Translations under genes and position numbers: made by a program
Source of the DNA: Tahibacter aquaticus
GTDB lineage: Bacteria > Pseudomonadota > Gammaproteobacteria > Xanthomonadales > Rhodanobacteraceae
Length of the DNA stretch: 64,000 nt
Assembly: GCF_004363655.1 (NCBI RefSeq)
Contig: NZ_SNZH01000007.1
Span: forward strand, 62,001-126,000
Direction of reading: 5' to 3'
The notes under the pieces: generated by a model
Database searches by the model: none
What the model was told of the DNA's origin: nothing
Seen by the model: the letters and a program-made list of their open reading frames with translations, nothing else
Part shown: positions 730-9,952 of the stretch, in pieces
How the letters are laid out: the number at the start of each line of letters is the position of its first letter
Numbering within the stretch: position 1 is the stretch's first letter

Positions 730-1551
730 CTAGCGCTGCCTCGCCGCCCATCGCTCCAGCCACTCGATAGCAAACGCCAGCATCGATGCGGCATCCACCC
801 GAAGCGACGGTGCCCTGCCGATCGACGCCTGCGTGCCGCCGCCTTGCTGTACAAACGCCGTCACGATCTGCTCGATATAGTTTTCCGGCATGCCCTCGAC
901 GATGGGTTCCGTCGTGTCGTATTCCTCGATGAAACGCCATTCCTTCGCGCTGTCGACGGCGAAAGGGACTTCGTAGCGGCGCTGCAACTTGTCGGGGATA
1001 CGCGCCAGGTGATCGGCGTGATGGACCAAGGTCATCGTGTCCCAGGGCGCACCGACCATCAGCACCTGGCCGCCTGCCGCCACCAGCTTCGCGAGCGGCG
1101 ATCCTTCGCCATAGCCGTAGTCTTGCGGATGATCGGCGGTGATCCATTCGGCCAGCCTGCCGACGGCAGCGACCGAGGCGCCGGGGTTCGCGCTGCGACG
1201 GGCACCGGGTGCTGTGCGCAGGAATTCGGCGAGGATGCCGTTCATGCGGACGGCACGCGACGTCGCCGCGTCGAAGCCCGGCACAGGGTCTCGCCATTCC
1301 GGCAGCACGCGGCCATCGTCGTCGAGCAGATCCTCGTGGACGCTATCCCAGCTCGTATAAGCCAGCAGCGTGCCTTGTGGGCCGACGACATCGAGCAGGG
1401 CGCCAATCAGCGCATCCGGTCCGTTCAACAGCGGCCCAACTTTGCTCATGGCCGCATGGACCATCACCACGTCGCCGGACTTCAGGCCGATGCGGGTCAG
1501 GTCGCTGTGCAGGGCGGTGCGGGTGAGGAAGGGGGGCTGGGCAGTGGGCAT
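730..1551 (-). CDS. Aminoglycoside 3-N-acetyltransferase family protein, AAC(3)-like
   Basis: The 273-residue product matches the acetyl-CoA-dependent AAC(3) family (AAC(3)-II/III type), which acetylates the 3-amino group of 2-deoxystreptamine aminoglycosides in the cytoplasm. Visible family blocks are VVMVHAAMSKVG (about 28-39), GTLLAYTSW (about 61-69), APGARRSANPGASVAAVG (about 114-131), YGEGSPLAKL (about 147-156) and GGQVLMVGAPWDTMTLVHHADH (about 160-181). Length is normal for the family. The ATG at 1551 has no clear Shine-Dalgarno sequence. The gene lies alone between repeat copies A/B and C in a patch of gene remnants, so lateral acquisition is plausible. Some family members are environmental enzymes with little resistance activity, so the family call is firm but the substrate is not. 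Confidence 0.88.
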   Translation of the reverse strand: MPTAQPPFLTRTALHSDLTRIGLKSGDVVMVHAAMSKVGPLLNGPDALIGALLDVVGPQGTLLAYTSWDSVHEDLLDDDGRVLPEWRDPVPGFDAATSRAVRMNGILAEFLRTAPGARRSANPGASVAAVGRLAEWITADHPQDYGYGEGSPLAKLVAAGGQVLMVGAPWDTMTLVHHADHLARIPDKLQRRYEVPFAVDSAKEWRFIEEYDTTEPIVEGMPENYIEQIVTAFVQQGGGTQASIGRAPSLRVDAASMLAFAIEWLERWAARQR

Positions 1552-1605
1552 GGTGCGATGGTGGTGGCTGAGATGGGGAGGTCAAGGACCGTGTCGCGCT
1601 CGAAT

Positions 1606-1641
1606 GGTTTCCTTGAAGGGGGCCACCCAACAACCGGAATT
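1606..1641 (+). repeat. 36-bp dispersed repeat, copy C
   Basis: Third copy, beginning GGTTTCCTTGAAGGGGGCCA, on the 5' side of the acetyltransferase gene and in the same orientation as copies A and B. Its reverse complement contains GTTGGGT, which fits the integron core-site pattern GTTRRRY. The other copies do not fit that pattern. Confidence 0.6.
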
Positions 1642-1649
1642 CCACGGCA

Positions 1650-1781
1650 TTTAGAGAATTCAACAATTTCGCCACTGAAATCGCCTATTACGACTTCCAG
1701 GAACAACAGTACACGCGATATGCTGACGACATACGCAAGCGTCTTGAAATTCGGTGTGGTTTCTGCTTGACGCGCTGGTAA
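1650..1781 (+). pseudogene. Gene fragment with a YTRYADD motif
   Basis: A 43-codon stretch ending at TAA 1779-1781 reads like real protein (FREFNNFATE, then IAYYDFQEQQ, then YTRYADDIRKRLEI). It has no start codon, because a TGA lies just upstream in the repeat. Base composition is less GC-rich than in neighbouring genes. YTRYADD resembles the catalytic YxDD box of retron and group II intron reverse transcriptases, but nothing else in the fragment supports that. I treat it as the 3' end of a truncated mobile-element gene of uncertain identity. Confidence 0.3.
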
Positions 1782-1960
1782 GCGCCTATAAAACTGCACA
1801 TGTTGCCGCCTATTCGGCAACCGGGTTTGGCGACCCGATTCAAGGCGCACCTGCGCCGACCAACGTATCGGCGTTTTTTATGCCCGATGCTTGGTCGGCG
1901 CGCAATCCGCTTTACGGCGGCGGTGCGTGGGGAGCCGAAAGGCTCGCCGGGTTTCCTTGA
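1754..1960 (+). CDS. Small ORF overlapping the structured leader (Ash/Icd-like?)
   Basis: A GTG-initiated 68-codon frame (MWFLLDALVSAYKTAHVAAY, then TGFGDPIQGAPAP and FFMPDAWSARNPLYGG) runs through the hairpins of the leader. Its layout, a small poorly conserved frame laid over a chain of inverted repeats, recalls the Ash/Icd-like ORFs of P4-type phage elements. That comparison is from memory and unverified. There is no good ribosome-binding site, so the frame may be a by-product of the RNA structure. Confidence 0.25.
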   Translation: MWFLLDALVSAYKTAHVAAYSATGFGDPIQGAPAPTNVSAFFMPDAWSARNPLYGGGAWGAERLAGFP

Positions 1961-2031
1961 CCGGTTCGCCAACCTGCGCACCGTCCGCCACCTTCTCGAT
2001 TGGCGCGAACTGGCGGACTTCACTCAAGGAG
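1802..2031 (+). ncRNA. Hairpin-rich structured leader with attenuator-like alternative stems
   Basis: Consecutive perfect stems can be read directly. GTTGCCG/CGGCAAC is at 1802-1821, CGGGT/ACCCG at 1822-1837 and GGCGCA/TGCGCC at 1844-1857. GCGCCGACCAA (1853-1863) pairs over 11 bp with TTGGTCGGCGC (1891-1901). GAGCC/GGCTC with a GAAA tetraloop is at 1932-1945, GGTT/AACC at 1963-1974 and GTCCGCCA/TGGCGGAC at 1983-2018. Inside the 11-bp stem lies a competing hairpin, GCCGA/TCGGC, followed by GTTTTTT (to 1879), which looks like an intrinsic terminator. The leader ends at a strong AAGGAG site (2026-2031) before a 27-codon ORF. This is consistent with a regulated untranslated leader of phage or mobile-element origin. 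The transcript itself is inferred. Confidence 0.5.
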
Positions 2032-2037
2032 TTCGAT

Positions 2038-2121
2038 ATGGATTTCGCACGTCTGTTCCAGCCCCTCCCTCCCGTTTACGCCAGCGCGCGGTGTTCGCAC
2101 TCCCGCAGGAGTGCGCCATGA
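2038..2121 (+). CDS. 27-residue leader-type peptide, coupled to the next gene
   Basis: ATG at 2038 lies 6 nt after AAGGAG. The frame encodes 27 residues (MDFARLFQPLPPVYASARCS plus 7 more) and ends in TGA at 2119-2121. That stop overlaps the ATG of the next gene as ATGA, the usual signature of translational coupling. The peptide is basic near its end and has no recognisable domain. Its role may be only to couple ribosomes from the structured leader to the downstream ORF. Confidence 0.5.
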   Translation: MDFARLFQPLPPVYASARCSHSRRSAP

Positions 2122-2399
2122 GTCAACCGATGGGTTCGTTCTATCCTCTCGCCAGTGAAGACACCGAAGCCCCGGCCGTCCTCTTCGCCTTCACCGCCGA
2201 CACCCCGCAACAACGCCGGGCCCTGCACGACGAAGTCGTCTCGCGGCTGTCGGCGGTCCATTCCCTCAGCGATGCCTTGCTCGCCGTGCAGGTCGAAGAC
2301 CATGCCCGCCGCTCGCATGCGCGCGTGATGGAGGCCATCGCCATTCTTTCGCGCGATGTGCTGGGACTGATTCAAGCGACGCAGCACTCGGCTGCCTGA
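2118..2399 (+). CDS. Hypothetical protein, 93 residues, mobile-element associated
   Basis: The start at 2118 is chosen because the ATG overlaps the stop of the preceding 27-codon ORF and CAGGAG lies 7-8 nt upstream. Longer readings of this frame run through the structured leader and are unlikely. The product is a soluble, mostly helical protein (FTADTPQQRRALHDEVVSRL, later SHARVMEAIAILSRDVLGLI). It recalls the small helical ORFs that follow structured leaders in prophage-like elements of other gammaproteobacteria, but I assign no function. An 11-bp-stem terminator follows its stop within 20 nt. Confidence 0.6.
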   Translation: MSQPMGSFYPLASEDTEAPAVLFAFTADTPQQRRALHDEVVSRLSAVHSLSDALLAVQVEDHARRSHARVMEAIAILSRDVLGLIQATQHSAA

Positions 2400-2415
2400 T
2401 TGTTGCCGATACGAC

Positions 2416-2452
2416 ACCCGGCTGCCCGCATCACGGCAGCCGGGTTTCCTTC
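2416..2452 (+). terminator. Intrinsic terminator after the small ORF pair
   Basis: ACCCGGCTGCC (2416-2426) pairs perfectly with GGCAGCCGGGT (2435-2445) across an 8-nt loop and is followed by a T-rich tail. It closes the unit that starts with the structured leader. Confidence 0.75.
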
Positions 2453-2643
2453 GTAGGAGGTTCCTTCGCGCCCGCGACCGAACGCCAGCGTAGCCACATC
2501 GCTATTGCCATACGCCGCCGATACCCGAAAGACTGGATTTTGCACCGTCTGCAACATGCGTCGATTATGCGCAAATGGCAGAACGGAGCACGGGTGCAGC
2601 GCGCAATGCGCTGCTGTCTTGGATGGAATCGTGGAGTAACGCA

Positions 2644-3120
2644 ATGACGCAAGACCTGGTTTCCCTGGCTTTCACTGCGGAACAGCTGGCCGCCATCGAT
2701 GCGGCGATGGACCAACTGGAAGCAAACCTGATCGGACTGATCGCGCTGACGCCGGCCGAACGCCGCACCTTGCAGCGCATGGGCTCGGTGTCCGAGCCGT
2801 TCTGCCGGCAGACCCTGATCGTGATGCAGCAGAACCCACACGTCATCCCCGCCAGCGTCAACCTGGCCGGCGGTGTGCAAGACCTGGCCACGCTGGATCT
2901 CCTCGCCCCGCGCCTGGACCGCCTGCAACGCCTGGCCGAACGCGGCGACGACACCGAAGCCGCCCTGGGCAGCGACATCCGCTCGCTCGCCCACGAAGGG
3001 TACGCACTGCTGAAGATCGCCGGCAAAAGCCAGGGCCTGGACGGCCTGCGCAAGGAGCTGTCGGTGCGGTTCCGGCGCAAGCGCCCGAGCGCAGCAGAGG
3101 AGCCCGAGGCGGAAGGTTAG
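2644..3120 (+). CDS. Conserved hypothetical protein, 158 residues
   Basis: ATG at 2644 follows TGGAG at a suitable distance. An upstream in-frame ATG at 2575 has no ribosome site. The soluble product (SLAFTAEQLAAIDAAMDQLE near the start, FCRQTLIVMQQNP at about 60-72, GSDIRSLAHEGYALLKIAGK at about 112-131) belongs to a family I recognise as a recurrent uncharacterised protein of proteobacteria, predicted all-helical. The charged C-terminus (RRKRPSAAEEPEAEG) looks disordered. It is monocistronic, with a terminator about 75 nt downstream. Function unknown. Confidence 0.8.
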   Translation: MTQDLVSLAFTAEQLAAIDAAMDQLEANLIGLIALTPAERRTLQRMGSVSEPFCRQTLIVMQQNPHVIPASVNLAGGVQDLATLDLLAPRLDRLQRLAERGDDTEAALGSDIRSLAHEGYALLKIAGKSQGLDGLRKELSVRFRRKRPSAAEEPEAEG

Positions 3121-3194
3121 ACGTAACTGTCTGAGGGGAGAATCCGCCTGCGCTGCGGTCAGCGTTGGCCAGAACCGCGAGCGCAAATGAACGC

Positions 3195-3224
3195 AAAGCC
3201 CGGCCGCACCGGCCGGGCTTTGTT
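3195..3224 (+). terminator. Intrinsic terminator
   Basis: AAAGCCCGGCC pairs with GGCCGGGCTTT across a short loop, followed by TGTTCG. It lies 75 nt after the stop of the 158-residue hypothetical gene. Confidence 0.75.
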
Positions 3225-4898: not shown

Positions 4899-7800
4899 TC
4901 AAAGGCTACCTTGAATACCTCGCACGTCGAACTCGTAGTTGCGGCGGTCACCGAAGTTAGTGTTGTAGTAATCGCGGGAGGACCAGAAAGGCGGTCGCGA
5001 AGGTCTGGGTGGCTGAGGATCCCGATACTCAGGGTGACATTCGAGTGTCGCACAGCCCATATCTGTTGGCGTCATTCCCCAGATGGCAACCCCGAGCGGA
5101 TTTGGAACCAGTCGGGTGCCCGCCGGATTTATTTTCAAGAACCCCTTAGTGCATTTGGCGATAACCTGATTTGACAGAAGCTTGTCAAACCAGCCGAACG
5201 ACCTTCCGCCATATGAAATCGGAGGTGGAATTCGGCCGTTGTACGTGGTCGGTGCCGGCGGCTTCGGGTGCCAGATCGGTGCTGGAATTCCGGGCTGCAG
5301 TCCATCTTCGTCGATAAACAAAAGAGGATTGGAATAGGCGTATCCGTAAGTGTTTGTCCCTCCATTGATTCCACTCGGATCGCTTTCTAGGTAGCGGCCG
5401 AGAGTCGCTTCGTACGAACGGAAACGGTTGTGATGGAGTTGTGTTTCCTCGTCTAGGATTTGCCCGGGATAGCGTAGATTCACTGCTTTTCCCGGTACGA
5501 TCGTCATGGCGGTGTTTTCTCCGAATCCGCTCCCGAGCCAGTCCCAGCGCCATTGAGCAGCGTTAGTGACCGGATCCACTGCAACGCGCGAAGTACCCAG
5601 ATGATCTGCCTCGATATAGCTGATTACAGCATTGCGCACCTGCGCTACCGGAGTCCGCCCAACATATAGATACGAAGTATGCTCGGCCGGACTTCCCGTG
5701 ACGTCACGGCGCTCCGCGAGCAACATTCCGTCGTAGCTGTAGGTGTAGCGGTCGACGACGGTCGTCCCGCCGTTGGCTCGGCTCTTTAGCAAACGCTCTC
5801 CTTCACCGGAGTACTCGTATGCCGTTGCATTCCCCGGCAAGGCGATAGCGGCAAGGCGATTGCTTGCGTCGTAACTCAATGTTGCGCCGTCACCGCGGTC
5901 GATGGTATTTCCGTTGGGATCGTACGTGCGAGTTGCTCCACCGACTATTCCTAGACGATGCGTGCCCGCAATTAGACTGCTAGTTTGCGCTGGTTGCCCT
6001 TCTCTTTGTTTGAATGTGCGATCTCCGGTCTTGTTGTAGCGGTATTCTTCCTTTAGCGATCCAGCGGAATCGAAAACTTTCGATAGACGGTTCTGCCGGT
6101 CGTATATATAAGTTCTGTCCGCGGTCGTGGCATCTATTGTTGCGGAGGCACCGGTGATGTTGCCCAATGCATCGCGGTCGAACTCAAGTACTAGGCCGCT
6201 TTGAGAAGAACTTACGATTCTGTCGATAACATAGTCTGAGTCGTAGACGCTCGTTAGTGTTCTACCGTTGCCGAATGAAAGTTTATTCATCGGGCCAAAA
6301 GGATAGTAGGAAATTCCCGCCACCACGGCTAGCGGCGACGCTGCAGGTGTGCTCTTCCAGCTCAACGAGTTAATGCGTCCGCTTAGATCATATCCGTAAA
6401 TCGCAGTGCCACCATCAGGATAGGTTATTGTCTCTACCCTGCCTGCTGCGTTGTAGGAATAGTGAATTGCTAGCGTTATACCCGCGGAATTCTGGGATTT
6501 TCGCGTGACATTGCCCAAGAAGTCGTAGCAGTAAGTTGTTGCATTTGTGCCCTGGACTATGCGAGTTAGCCTGTCTACGGGATACGAGTTGTTACAGCCT
6601 GTTGTGGCGTCTGTTTCGTCATAGTAGAAACTGGTATTTAGCGATACCGTCGGATATTTCGTTGAAGTTTGGCGGTTCAAGGCATCGTAAATGTGCGTGA
6701 CGACAGTTCCCCTCGCGTCGGTCTGGGATAGCCGATTTCCCATGCCATCATATGTGTATGAGGAATGAGCTGTATCGGGACTGTCGAGTGCGAGCAGATT
6801 GCCAAGACTGTCTACCGTGAATGTTGTTATCAGACCGTCCGGATCTTTTACACTGCGTAAAGTGTCCCGGGTGTCGTAGCCAAAATCTGTCGTCGCATTG
6901 GCAGTTTCGAGCGAAGTGCCCGTAATGTCCTCGATTGACCGCGCCAAGCGATTGAGCGGATCGTATGTGCGTTGCGTCTTGGTGCCACGCCCGTCTGCGA
7001 ATTCGACGCGGTTGCCGTTCGCATCGTAGCCGTCGTTCAGTAAGGCCGAGTCGTATGTGGAAGAATCATAGTTCGCCTGCCCTGAGACGTTCAGTGTCCG
7101 GGAGATTCGGCCAAGCACGTTGTACTGACGAACGATGGCATGCTTCAGGCTGGCACCTGGTACAGCTGCGTTGTATGTCGCATCGAAAATTTCATCTTTC
7201 GTTGGGTTTCCCGCGGCATCTAGGGTGTAGTGAATGCGATTGCCGGACCGGTCGATAATTCGGACTAGACGGTGCGCGTCGTCATAACCGTAGTCGACAT
7301 AGGTGCCATCGGCTTCGGTAATTCTTGTGACTTGTCCCGCGTGGTCGTAGGTAAATGAGATCGTCGCGTCCAATGCACTAGGAGATCCGCTGGAAAGCGC
7401 GCGTGTAGTTTGCGACAGCAGTCGACCACGCGCGTCGTAGCTCACGTCGACGATTACGTTATTCGCGTCACGTGTGCGCAAAATACGTCCACTGCGATCG
7501 TAGGCAATGGTTTCGCTTATGTGTCCGAGCGCGTCAGTAGCGGAAGACAAGTCCCCCTTGCGATGACACGGCCCACTGAGCGTCCCGCAACCGGTTTCGT
7601 CTGTGCTCGGGTAGTAGGCATAGCTTATGATGTCATCAAGTCCATTCATGCCCGCATCGCTGGTCAGCCGCGGCCCGTTGACTGACTTGGTGTAGCCAAG
7701 AATCGGACAAGTCGAATTGCTGGCCGCCACATCGCCCGCTTCGCAATAGGCATACGTCCAGCGCCGCACCCTGGCACCTGCGGCAGGCGCTGTCGTATCG

Positions 7801-9851
7801 CTGCACGTATAGGCCATGGCCGCCGCATCGGCGATATCGATTTCGCAGCGGGCGACGACTTGGCCGCGGCTGTTGTAGGCCCAGCGTGTTTTGCTTTCGA
7901 TGGCGCCGGTGCTGTTGCGAAGATCGCGCTCGAGCGGAGCGCGTAGGCTGGCGTGCCAGATCGTTTCGGTGGCGCGCGTATAGCTGCCGGCAGTGGTCGG
8001 TACGCGGCAGCTGTAGTGCCAGCCAGTCCAGCCGATTTCTGCGGCGTTGCTGCTGCCGGTGAACGGCGTGGTGCGCCAACAGGTGCCGGTCAGGCAGGTG
8101 GAAGTGTAATTGTTGCTGTCGGCGCTCGTGCCTGCGGGGCAGGTGGTCGGGCCTTCGCTGAAGTTTTCCCGGCGAGCGGTTTCCAGTGCCTGGTCGTTGT
8201 AGTCGTAATCGGTGATCGTGCCTTTGTAGTCGATGGAAAGGCGTGGATTGCCGTTGGCGTCGTAGTATTTAGTGGTCTTCTGCAGACTGGCGGAACTGCA
8301 GCCCGGGTTGTCGCAGCGGGTGACGCCTTCGTCGCGGATGGCGCCGTTGACGAAGCGGAAGCGGCGCTTTGTCAGCGAGCCCAGGCCATCCAGCAGATTG
8401 GCCTTGGACAACGTGTCGTCGAAGCCGGCGGTATAGCTGACTTTGAGGTAGTCCGCATTGCTGCTGCCGTGCCATTCCTCTACGGCTCGGCCATCGCCGC
8501 TGTATTTGTAGGTGGCGAAGCGCTGGCCATTTTCGTCGATGATGCCGGTCAGCAGATGCCAGCCTTCGGATACGGTGAAGGGCGCGGTCTCGTTATAGAT
8601 GTACTGTCGTGTCTTTCCTTCGGGATAGATGGTGCGGACCAGCCTTTCCTTGGGATCGAACTCATAGGCGATGACATTGCCGATGCTGTCGATGATTTCG
8701 AGCCGTCGCGGGTGATGTACGCCGCCCGGGTAAGTCTCCTTGGTATAGCGAAAATCCAGCGTGCGGCCGAGTGCGTCGGTGACGCGCACCAGCAGTCCTT
8801 CTTCCGGTGCGATCGAGGCGGGTGTACTTGCTGTGCTGTATTCCAGTGCCGTAACCAATCCGGACCGTGTCGAAATACTGAGCAGGCGGCCTTGTAGGTC
8901 GTAGTGCTCGATCTCGTCCTGGGGCGTGGTGTAGCGCCAGCCGGTGCGCACGCCCTGGTCGATGATTTCTTCCAGGCTTTCCCATTGGTCTTTGCGTCCG
9001 ACCCAGGCGCCGTTGATCAGGCGGAAATCACTGTACTTGCCGTCGGCGCGCACAAGGAAAGCCGTTTGCAACGTGTTGGGGGGAGTGGCGGTTTCCAGCT
9101 GCAATGTCCGTTGATAGCTGTGGCGCCAGTTCGGACCGAGGAAATTGCGTTTTGATGGCGATGAGTTATAGAAACCCGAGCTGGAATAGTGATGGCTCAG
9201 CGAAAGTGTGCCGGGCCCTGTGCTCGGGATATCGCTCTCGTGCTGCAGCTTCTGGCCGCCGGCACACTGAATGGGATTCCCGGCCGGACATGCCTTGGGC
9301 CTCGGGCGCGTACACATGTTGATGGTCAGGTCTGCCCCATAGGTCGGCGGACAGATGACCGGCGCCTTGCAGTCGATGGCCAGTCCATCGCCGCCTGCAC
9401 AGTTGGTTACGTATCCAGAGGGATTGTCATTGCAGGCTGACTTGGCGTCAAAGCTCAGCTCGTGACGGATGACCAGGCCCATGTACTTCGTTTGGGTATT
9501 CGGTTGCGTCGTTACGTCCCGGCAGGGCATGGGCTCCAGCGCCGAGCACAGCGGAAATGTCTTCACCCAATTGGCGCTGACAGCGTCGATGACCTGGCTT
9601 GGTGTTTTGCAGGCCAGGCCGCAGGGCGGATCGCTGGATGCAATCGAGGCGCCACCGACGCAGACTTGGGGATCCTGGTTTGGGGGTACGCATTCCAGGT
9701 CTCCTCCTTCCTTGTTACATCGCTTGTCGAGAAGCGCGTTGGCATGCGGTGTCGCAAACAGCAGCGACAGCGTCAGGAGAGCGCCGCGTAGCGTAGTAAA
9801 GGATAGTGGTCCTTGCCTCGGCTGCCCGGTGTGGCTTCGACTGGTGAACAT
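4899..9851 (-). CDS. Secreted RHS/YD-repeat protein with a variable C-terminus
   Basis: The start is set at ATG 9851 because GGAGGAG lies about 9 nt upstream. An ATG 21 nt earlier has none. The 1650-residue product begins with a Sec signal peptide (LRGALLTLSLLFATPHANA) and a Cys-rich segment of about 180 residues. A DUF6531-like start (LSLSHHYSSSGFY, about residue 220) follows, then many YD repeats (such as YSYDGMLLAERR). The RHS core (YIEADHLGTSRVAVD, about 1413, and RYLESDPSGINGGTNTYGYA) ends at an IDEDGL variant of the usual DPxGL cleavage box (about 1514). The last 135 residues are Pro-rich with a few Cys and match no toxin I know. RHS shells encapsulate a C-terminal effector. A signal peptide instead of a PAAR domain argues for export independent of type VI secretion. 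Base composition falls in the 3' two thirds, suggesting a mosaic gene. Confidence 0.9.
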   Translation of the reverse strand: MFTSRSHTGQPRQGPLSFTTLRGALLTLSLLFATPHANALLDKRCNKEGGDLECVPPNQDPQVCVGGASIASSDPPCGLACKTPSQVIDAVSANWVKTFPLCSALEPMPCRDVTTQPNTQTKYMGLVIRHELSFDAKSACNDNPSGYVTNCAGGDGLAIDCKAPVICPPTYGADLTINMCTRPRPKACPAGNPIQCAGGQKLQHESDIPSTGPGTLSLSHHYSSSGFYNSSPSKRNFLGPNWRHSYQRTLQLETATPPNTLQTAFLVRADGKYSDFRLINGAWVGRKDQWESLEEIIDQGVRTGWRYTTPQDEIEHYDLQGRLLSISTRSGLVTALEYSTASTPASIAPEEGLLVRVTDALGRTLDFRYTKETYPGGVHHPRRLEIIDSIGNVIAYEFDPKERLVRTIYPEGKTRQYIYNETAPFTVSEGWHLLTGIIDENGQRFATYKYSGDGRAVEEWHGSSNADYLKVSYTAGFDDTLSKANLLDGLGSLTKRRFRFVNGAIRDEGVTRCDNPGCSSASLQKTTKYYDANGNPRLSIDYKGTITDYDYNDQALETARRENFSEGPTTCPAGTSADSNNYTSTCLTGTCWRTTPFTGSSNAAEIGWTGWHYSCRVPTTAGSYTRATETIWHASLRAPLERDLRNSTGAIESKTRWAYNSRGQVVARCEIDIADAAAMAYTCSDTTAPAAGARVRRWTYAYCEAGDVAASNSTCPILGYTKSVNGPRLTSDAGMNGLDDIISYAYYPSTDETGCGTLSGPCHRKGDLSSATDALGHISETIAYDRSGRILRTRDANNVIVDVSYDARGRLLSQTTRALSSGSPSALDATISFTYDHAGQVTRITEADGTYVDYGYDDAHRLVRIIDRSGNRIHYTLDAAGNPTKDEIFDATYNAAVPGASLKHAIVRQYNVLGRISRTLNVSGQANYDSSTYDSALLNDGYDANGNRVEFADGRGTKTQRTYDPLNRLARSIEDITGTSLETANATTDFGYDTRDTLRSVKDPDGLITTFTVDSLGNLLALDSPDTAHSSYTYDGMGNRLSQTDARGTVVTHIYDALNRQTSTKYPTVSLNTSFYYDETDATTGCNNSYPVDRLTRIVQGTNATTYCYDFLGNVTRKSQNSAGITLAIHYSYNAAGRVETITYPDGGTAIYGYDLSGRINSLSWKSTPAASPLAVVAGISYYPFGPMNKLSFGNGRTLTSVYDSDYVIDRIVSSSQSGLVLEFDRDALGNITGASATIDATTADRTYIYDRQNRLSKVFDSAGSLKEEYRYNKTGDRTFKQREGQPAQTSSLIAGTHRLGIVGGATRTYDPNGNTIDRGDGATLSYDASNRLAAIALPGNATAYEYSGEGERLLKSRANGGTTVVDRYTYSYDGMLLAERRDVTGSPAEHTSYLYVGRTPVAQVRNAVISYIEADHLGTSRVAVDPVTNAAQWRWDWLGSGFGENTAMTIVPGKAVNLRYPGQILDEETQLHHNRFRSYEATLGRYLESDPSGINGGTNTYGYAYSNPLLFIDEDGLQPGIPAPIWHPKPPAPTTYNGRIPPPISYGGRSFGWFDKLLSNQVIAKCTKGFLKINPAGTRLVPNPLGVAIWGMTPTDMGCATLECHPEYRDPQPPRPSRPPFWSSRDYYNTNFGDRRNYEFDVRGIQGSL

Positions 9852-9952
9852 GCTTTTGTGCTCCTCCGGCATTTGCGCGAGCGTTCTGCTGCGCTGATAC
9901 CGTTATCGTCAAAGCAGGGCAAGCATGATCAGGGTGTAACGTTGTGCACGTG

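Follow-up and report, generated by a model that had tools for sequence, protein, structure and literature searches.

We report a chromosomal C4 antisense-RNA cassette of the P1 immI, P4 CI and Gifsy isrK kind in Tahibacter aquaticus, and propose that its C4 RNA probably triggers early termination of the very transcript that encodes it. The cassette lies in the 64,000-nt stretch of DNA analyzed here (the window), and its parts, their covariation and a copy-specific matching between C4 and leader can be read from the sequences of its many relatives. It is an established kind of RNA module in an unusual form: C4 RNAs are familiar chiefly as lone immunity switches of phages, and here they occur in a multi-copy, chromosomal and self-coded form, and the sequences make it likely that C4 unlocks a terminator.

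The region that led us to the cassette is a chain of hairpins at 1802-2031, which is real, with stems at the positions given in the initial annotation. Its predicted fold reaches -121.5 kcal/mol against a mean of -91.8 kcal/mol for dinucleotide shuffles (z -6.53, 0/200 as good), in a whole-region, single-sequence calculation that favors long-range pairs and is blind to co-transcriptional order. A repeat search returned eight inverted pairs of at least 7 nt, four of them perfect (1853-1863/1891-1901, 11 nt; 1983-1990/2011-2018, 8 nt; 1802-1808/1815-1821; and 1954-1960/2024-2030), and shorter perfect stems are found besides in the second leader hairpin, in a small hairpin that we call H0, in a terminator and in the C4 stems. 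On the forward strand, the cassette opens with a candidate promoter at 1767-1795 (TTGACG, 17-nt spacer, AAAACT), whose position and spacing recur by eye in other copies; a consensus scan returned no promoter, so the candidate is proposed from conservation only. Two c4-a1b1-like leader hairpins follow (1802-1837), and then H0, the terminator, C4 (1910-1995) and two coupled open reading frames: ORF1, 27 codons long (2038-2121), behind AAGGAG, and ORF2, of 93 aa (2118-2399), whose start codon shares ATGA with the stop of ORF1. The ribosome site, 27-codon frame and coupled second frame of the initial annotation are confirmed; two structures had been overlooked, the C4 RNA itself and a third exclusive stem at 1844-1848/1853-1857.

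The element at 1910-1995 is close to certain to be a C4 antisense RNA. It matches Rfam RF01695 over the full length of the model (1-87) with 69 bits against a cut-off of 45 (E 2.5e-11), and its stems P1-P3 are paired in 99.1% of the cells of a 28-copy alignment. Its variable loop (1954-1960) and second pairing segment (1966-1972) have target sites in the same transcript at 1827-1833, 1840-1845, 2000-2005 and 2024-2030. With permissive settings, two more models align in register below their cut-offs: c4-a1b1 (RF03163) over its full length at 1789-1841, just short at 46.2 bits against 46.7, and isrK (RF01394) at 1802-1878, clearly short at 43.1 bits against 50. Tripartite arrays above all three cut-offs are present in 4/7 viral loci scanned (L196, L197, L208 and L220). 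The P4-like resemblance noted in the initial annotation was thus correct in kind, by the C4 match and the weaker c4-a1b1 and isrK matches.

C4 is a repeated element in this genome and its relatives. The 7.27-Mb assembly (82 contigs) holds 10 copies, all above the cut-off, and six of the eight genomes of the genus carry the element, with 10, 19, 6, 4, 6 and 4 copies (49 altogether, all above the cut-off). In the family it was found in 32 of 147 genomes, among them one of another genus with 16 matches (15 above the cut-off) and one of a third genus with 10 (5 above); in the class, 24 of 369 genomes have it, including one of the same order with 10 copies above the cut-off. A protein search located relatives in Tahibacter caeni, T. 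harae and two metagenome-assembled genomes. From the 49 places in the genus, collected with nhmmer, a second C4 in L053 and the copy L082, which has lost its leader, were dropped, leaving 47 copies that we sorted by eye into class A (5), class B (23) and class C (19). Class A, chosen by its match at the ribosome site, comprises L009, L011 (the window copy), two copies in L068, and L071; class C consists of 18 copies of a single relative genome (G001) and L012 of the T. aquaticus genome. ORF2 is 60-68% identical to that of the window in the three class A members aligned, against 37-50% in the others.

Homology among the copies of the T. aquaticus genome extends over about 600-730 nt in most class B pairs, from the promoter region to the end of ORF2, and over 599 nt between the same limits in L009/L011; L009 shares only about 220 nt with class B, and L012 about 80-200 nt. 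It reaches 886 nt in L010/L013 and up to 1088 nt, repeats included, in L016/L017. Tandem repeats of about 63 nt, which the cassettes have in common, lie beyond ORF2, roughly 0.6-1.1 kb after C4, in L013, L015, L016 and L017. In class B copies L014-L017 and L077-L079 we also noticed by eye a recurrent sequence, GGGACAAATCC..ACYCTTGACG, just before and including the -35 element and absent from the window copy, which is a possible regulator site. In the genome of another genus with 16 C4 matches (G066), the seven parsed modules (L114-L116, L118, L123, L129 and L130) have leaders without a clear T-run, and small proteins bearing a CPxC motif come after six of them; these modules may represent another version of the switch.

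Copies differ in the loop of the third C4 stem, and each loop can pair with a segment of its own leader, located between the second hairpin and the terminator, that we refer to as the barcode. In the window copy the barcode is TCAAGG (1840-1845), the complement of C4 loop positions 1955-1960 and the second C4 target site of the leader. Across the 47 copies, the longest perfect match between loop and barcode has a mean length of 6.5 nt when both come from one copy (own pairs) and 3.7 nt when they do not, and the sum over own pairs was reached by 0/20000 permutations. When the targets of all genomes are pooled, 24 loops match their own target strictly better than any other, and for 40/47 the own target is best or tied; L064 and L065 match over 4 nt only. 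Within a genome the loops are all distinct among the 10 copies of T. aquaticus and the 18 examined in G001, and when duplex energies with the barcode windows of that genome are compared, 10/10 and 17/18 of them are predicted to bind their own target most strongly. Two pairs of copies within one genome have identical loops (L072/L078 and L069/L084); by eye, both pairs differ at the site of the second pairing described below. The rule holds in other genera: in 36 modules, parsed from 70 loci (28 with a match out of 44 tried, plus 26 loci), own matches average 6.6 nt against 4.3 nt (0/20000 permutations), with 5/36 reaching only 4 nt and 6/36 only 5 nt.

A second pairing joins the loop of leader hairpin 2 to the C4 segment that follows the third stem; in the window copy, TTGGCGA at 1827-1833 (target site 1) is the complement of 1966-1972. 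It spans 7 nt in 43/47 copies and 6 nt in four, against 4.9 nt for non-own pairs, the run recorded in L013 and in one L068 copy lying beside the loop. It shows 28 double-change cells in the 28-copy alignment (0/500 shuffles); these copies are kin, so that shuffle counts here and below overstate independence and are not probabilities. In the closest copies it is the code that differs. Between L052 and L059, identity is 99% across 330 nt of downstream sequence, 96% for the body of C4 and 38% for the loop; for L055/L061 the values are 97%, 92% and 45%, and for L010/L013 of the T. aquaticus genome 92%, 93% and 44%. The counter-case is L068/L071, from two genomes, whose loops are 90% shared. The diversity of the loop can be explained as private coding between paralogues. 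As to phages, five viral contigs carry the window code, which at 6 nt is too short for this sharing to be meaningful; loose or exact versions of it occur at 30 viral loci, of which about 18 resemble C4 modules by eye.

Immediately at the barcode lies H0 (GGCGC/GCGCC, 1844-1848/1853-1857), a candidate antiterminator followed by an intrinsic terminator (stem CGCCGA/TCGGCG, 1854-1859/1868-1873, with T6 at 1874-1879). A perfect H0 is present in 43/47 copies and was not found in L051, L054, L064 and L080; in all 43 the barcode runs 1-4 nt into its left arm, an overlap that is partly built in because an H0 start was allowed only within the barcode or at most 3 nt after it. H0 is paired in 100% of cells in 28/28 aligned copies and shows five double-change cells (0/500 shuffles), which may amount to three or four events. 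The terminator is paired in 99.4% of cells (28 copies), the same changes being absorbed as G-U type pairs with no double change. Where H0 is altered to GACGC or AGCGC, the C4 loop is altered to match (L013, L016, L076, L083 and L085, by eye), making a three-way change.

The initial annotation had set a terminator-like hairpin of 5 bp against an 11-bp stem at 1853-1863/1891-1901 as its antiterminator. The hairpin is present, with six Watson-Crick pairs, or seven with a G-T pair, and the left arm is indeed common to both structures; with H0, three stems compete for the strand 1853-1863. The 11-bp stem, which would form only in read-through RNA, is paired in 89% of cells (72/500 shuffles as good) and has four double-change cells (26/500). 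Its right arm, at 1891-1901, is downstream of the T-run. RNA polymerase reaches that arm only after the choice between termination and read-through has fallen, which disqualifies the stem as antiterminator. By position and by covariation H0, unlike 1853-1863/1891-1901, qualifies as a competitor completed ahead of the terminator; H0 is the better candidate and could act in time. A ligand-gated attenuator built on the 11-bp stem, as that annotation read the leader, is extremely unlikely: the stem is perfect in the window copy and mostly kept elsewhere, but it is completed too late and covaries less than H0, and no riboswitch family was found at gathering score in the window or at E up to 1 in 1700-2200. 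What stands of that reading is an attenuator-like leader ahead of a coupled pair of ORFs, and the compensatory changes that it had suggested looking for are present in H0 and in the second pairing between leader and C4. The ligand or regulator for which it had no name is most likely C4 itself, encoded 30 nt past the T-run.

Structure prediction is consistent with such a role for C4. In ViennaRNA ensembles of the 47 copies, masking the barcode, which imitates C4 binding only crudely, takes the mean terminator probability from the free-leader value of 0.42 to 0.90, with an increase of more than 0.05 in 38/47 and no such rise in 9/47. Masking only the last 2 nt of the barcode gives 0.89 (38/47 up) and masking the barcode without them 0.50 (12/47 up), while a control mask of equal length gives 0.48 when placed 8 nt upstream (20/47 up) and masks on other leader segments give 0.36 (14/47 up); in a separate masking run the probability fell in 0/46 copies. 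For the window copy the values are 0.87 free and 1.00 masked, so the gain predicted from C4 is small at equilibrium because the terminator is already at 0.87 without it. The purpose of the variable loop is probably to match its own leader and reach into the antiterminator-like hairpin.

C4 has a second target at the ribosome site of ORF1 in the window copy, where TTGGCG (2000-2005) matches the second segment and TCAAGGA (2024-2030), over the Shine-Dalgarno, matches the loop. In all five class A copies, the window copy included, loop and second segment each match this site over 6-8 nt. In class B the loop matches it over 2-4 nt (23/23), and in class C over 3-4 nt in 15 copies, 5 nt in three and 7 nt in one, so that 41/42 copies of the two classes have at most 5 nt there and keep their leader target. 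Targeting of the leader is thus common to the copies, and targeting of the ribosome site is confined to a minority. Two other pairings occur in this part of the transcript: the 3' strand of C4 (1983-1990) can alternatively pair with 2011-2018 over a perfect 8 nt, an arrangement paired in 92.9% of cells with six double-change cells (0/500 shuffles), and a Shine-Dalgarno hairpin near the start codon is paired in 95.9%, with no double change.

These counts bear on translational repression of the P1 type as the main action of C4. It would cover the ORF1 ribosome site, the synthesis of ORF2 would thereby be lost, and the leader targets would only titrate C4. The matches of class A and the ATGA coupling of the ORFs fit this scheme, but the short ribosome-site matches of nearly all class B and C copies, with the leader match kept, do not, and the overlap between barcode and H0 and the three-way changes are left unexplained. 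We consider it rather unlikely, and favor C4-induced termination.

From this arrangement we infer how the cassette would be transcribed, processed and regulated. A single transcript would start near 1802, as the promoter-like sequence suggests, and RNA polymerase would first make the two target hairpins and the barcode, which leads into H0. H0 would hold the left arm of the intrinsic terminator, and some transcripts would read through because that arm is occupied. C4 would be carried in the read-through RNA, presumably released by RNase P as judged from P1/P7, and would pair by its two segments with the leaders of later transcripts from the same copy. The variable loop would take the barcode and the first bases of H0, opening H0 and allowing the terminator to form, and C4 would in this way limit its own synthesis and that of ORF1-ORF2. 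In the window copy a block of translation is also expected, as in P1, because C4 matches the ORF1 ribosome site.

The short terminated leader would act as a C4 decoy, as proposed for IsrK. It might instead work in trans on the long RNA and free the ORF1 ribosome site, in an activation of the IsrK type. IsrK was shown to activate in trans (PMC4825925), the isrK model aligns in register, and the coupled ORFs resemble orf45-anrP; its score is nevertheless under the cut-off, and the overlap between barcode and H0 is not something that activation requires. Activation as the main action is unlikely, and it is compatible with the decoy step of C4-induced termination rather than opposed to it. A result from Salmonella stands against C4-induced termination: there, co-expression of the C4-like STnc1160 with IsrK made growth arrest stronger, not weaker (PMC4825925).

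The payload of the cassette is a pair of small proteins. ORF1 has 27-35 codons in class A and B relatives, and ORF2 is predicted to be a two-helix hairpin, AlphaFold2 giving two long helices (30-60 and 64-90) with moderate confidence (mean pLDDT 71.4, pTM 0.59); fold searches returned nothing at E <= 0.001. The ORF2 family of classes A and B occurs in 6/147 family genomes, all six of this genus, and its 15 matches in the T. aquaticus genome exceed the 10 C4 copies. Neither Pfam nor PHROGs returned anything for the window ORF2 up to E = 1, and seven relatives gave only chance-level hits to a malonate decarboxylase subunit (Pfam 0.016 and NCBIfam 0.033, one member each), so that Pfam, NCBIfam and PHROGs offer no useful match. 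Family searches gave no antirepressor (ant) assignment of the kind held by the second gene of P1 immI. DUF3077, at 21 bits and at its cut-off, came from the second ORF after C4 module L103 and is too weak to name ORF2. A tblastn search with the ORF2 relative of L014 found nothing in 50,697 phage and 72,556 plasmid records, an alignment of seven ORF2 proteins found no match in viral contigs, and no Ash or other phage family was found in the leader frames with Pfam (one chance match, E 0.031).

Other copies carry other payloads. Class C has a different small protein in G001, and in viral contigs the arrays precede small proteins that look antirepressor-like by sequence or are of other kinds. L012 (3001-3700) has an ORF with a RadC domain in place of the ORF1-ORF2 pair. 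On contig 11 of the T. aquaticus genome (L229, 461-850, reverse strand), an ORF2 copy lies directly behind promoter-like sequence and a c4-a1b1-like leader (32.7 bits, sub-cut-off); lacking C4 and ORF1, it looks like a target-only version.

Several copies neighbor core genes named by eye in partly annotated flanks (carbamoyl-phosphate synthase, GreA, glucose-6-phosphate dehydrogenase, Fur and DusB), and the carA site spans 7.1 kb in the T. aquaticus genome, including cassette L016, against 285 nt in a relative (G005). At the DNA level, positions 1600-3200 resembled no phage, and similarity to plasmids was confined to 52 nt of an 'ash family' gene. That the cassettes are dead prophage remnants with no present function is very unlikely: broken copies do occur (L082 without its leader, the second C4 in L053 and the contig-11 leader without C4), but the compensatory and barcode-matched changes among copies, an ORF2 match free of internal stops in all 28 class A and B copies with a leader, and the core genes nearby all speak against decay.

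The surroundings of the window copy include an aminoglycoside 3-N-acetyltransferase family protein (Antibiotic_NAT) directly upstream (733-1551, reverse strand) and, downstream, a 1657-aa protein that looks RHS-repeat-like by eye (4899-9872, reverse strand) with small ORFs behind it. A 158-aa ORF with no family match (2644-3117, forward strand) is itself multi-copy, with eight matches in the T. aquaticus genome and eight in G001, and of its 21 matches in the genus, six are no more than about 1.5 kb from a C4 place. We scanned ten proteins flanking seven T. aquaticus copies for anti-phage functions: three copies have anti-phage-like neighbors upstream, namely an LmuB-like AAA protein and an ABC-3C CTD9 protein at L010, the end of an MmeI-type IIG enzyme at L013, and a PDC-S59 match at L014. 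Among 87 flanking ORFs of relatives, PADLOC assigned one member each to BrxA, PglZ, AbiLi, SoFic, PDC-S05 and PDC-S23 (among the best 25 of 43 families), and an McrBC match was also seen in relatives' flanks; in 34 control ORFs of the window, models matched two members each, mostly PD-T4-6 and other kinase-type models (among the best 25 of 37 rows). We do not retain an enrichment of defense genes beside the cassettes as more than a lead, the flanks being short, the ORF lists partly spurious and the sets not comparable in length.

As to what the proteins do, we infer tentatively, and with considerable doubt, that the cassettes may be addiction-like guard modules, in which a private antisense RNA restrains only its own ORF1-ORF2, whose unchecked expression would harm the cell. 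Selection would then favor joint changes of loop and barcode in near-identical copies, since with a common code the loss of one copy could be made good by another. The modules would stabilize accessory islands, several of which carry anti-phage genes. Independently of this, the matching yields a specific rule, open to experiment, for how C4 would act through early termination, puts dozens of natural and apparently orthogonal antisense switches on offer, and opens the question of why small helical proteins need such tight private control.

The phage P1/P7 immI operon has the order c4-icd-ant. The cassette is like it in the C4 fold (69 bits here) and in the placing of its targets, some ahead of C4 and some over the ribosome site of a small ORF to which a second gene is coupled; the specificity of P1/P7 C4 resides in the variable loop (PMC5320573), as it probably does here. 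Only here does an intrinsic terminator with H0 stand between the leader targets and C4; moreover, ORF2 matches no antirepressor family, and there are many copies per genome, mostly without the ribosome-site target. In P4, the processed leader RNA CI (seqA/seqC) pairs upstream and promotes premature termination, according to PMC4825925. Our likening to P4 draws on this description of CI, and no satellite-phage genes were recognized around the window copy.

For Gifsy-1, PMC4825925 describes IsrK, its terminator, the read-through orf45-anrP mRNA and the parallel with P4 CI, and its authors make the unproven suggestion of a possible modulating effect of STnc1160 on the IsrK terminator. The IsrK-STnc1160-orf45-anrP arrangement is like ours in its short leader RNA ending at a terminator, in a further RNA within the read-through transcript, which is stable in Gifsy-1, and in its coupled ORFs; it differs in that the window copy reaches 43.1 against the isrK cut-off of 50 and in a payload unrelated to the antirepressor by family search. 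C4 and c4-a1b1 are listed in PMC2864571, and C4 with isrK in Xylella in PMC12189769. In the literature searched, which included few subscription journals, we met neither C4 sets that match themselves copy by copy nor any mention of C4 in Tahibacter. The 21 Group 1 C4-like small RNAs of A. baumannii AB5075 have a variable specificity loop, and their targets are left open in PMC5320573. They resemble our cassettes in their many copies per genome and in the variability of that loop, and the difference is that here each loop matches its own leader.
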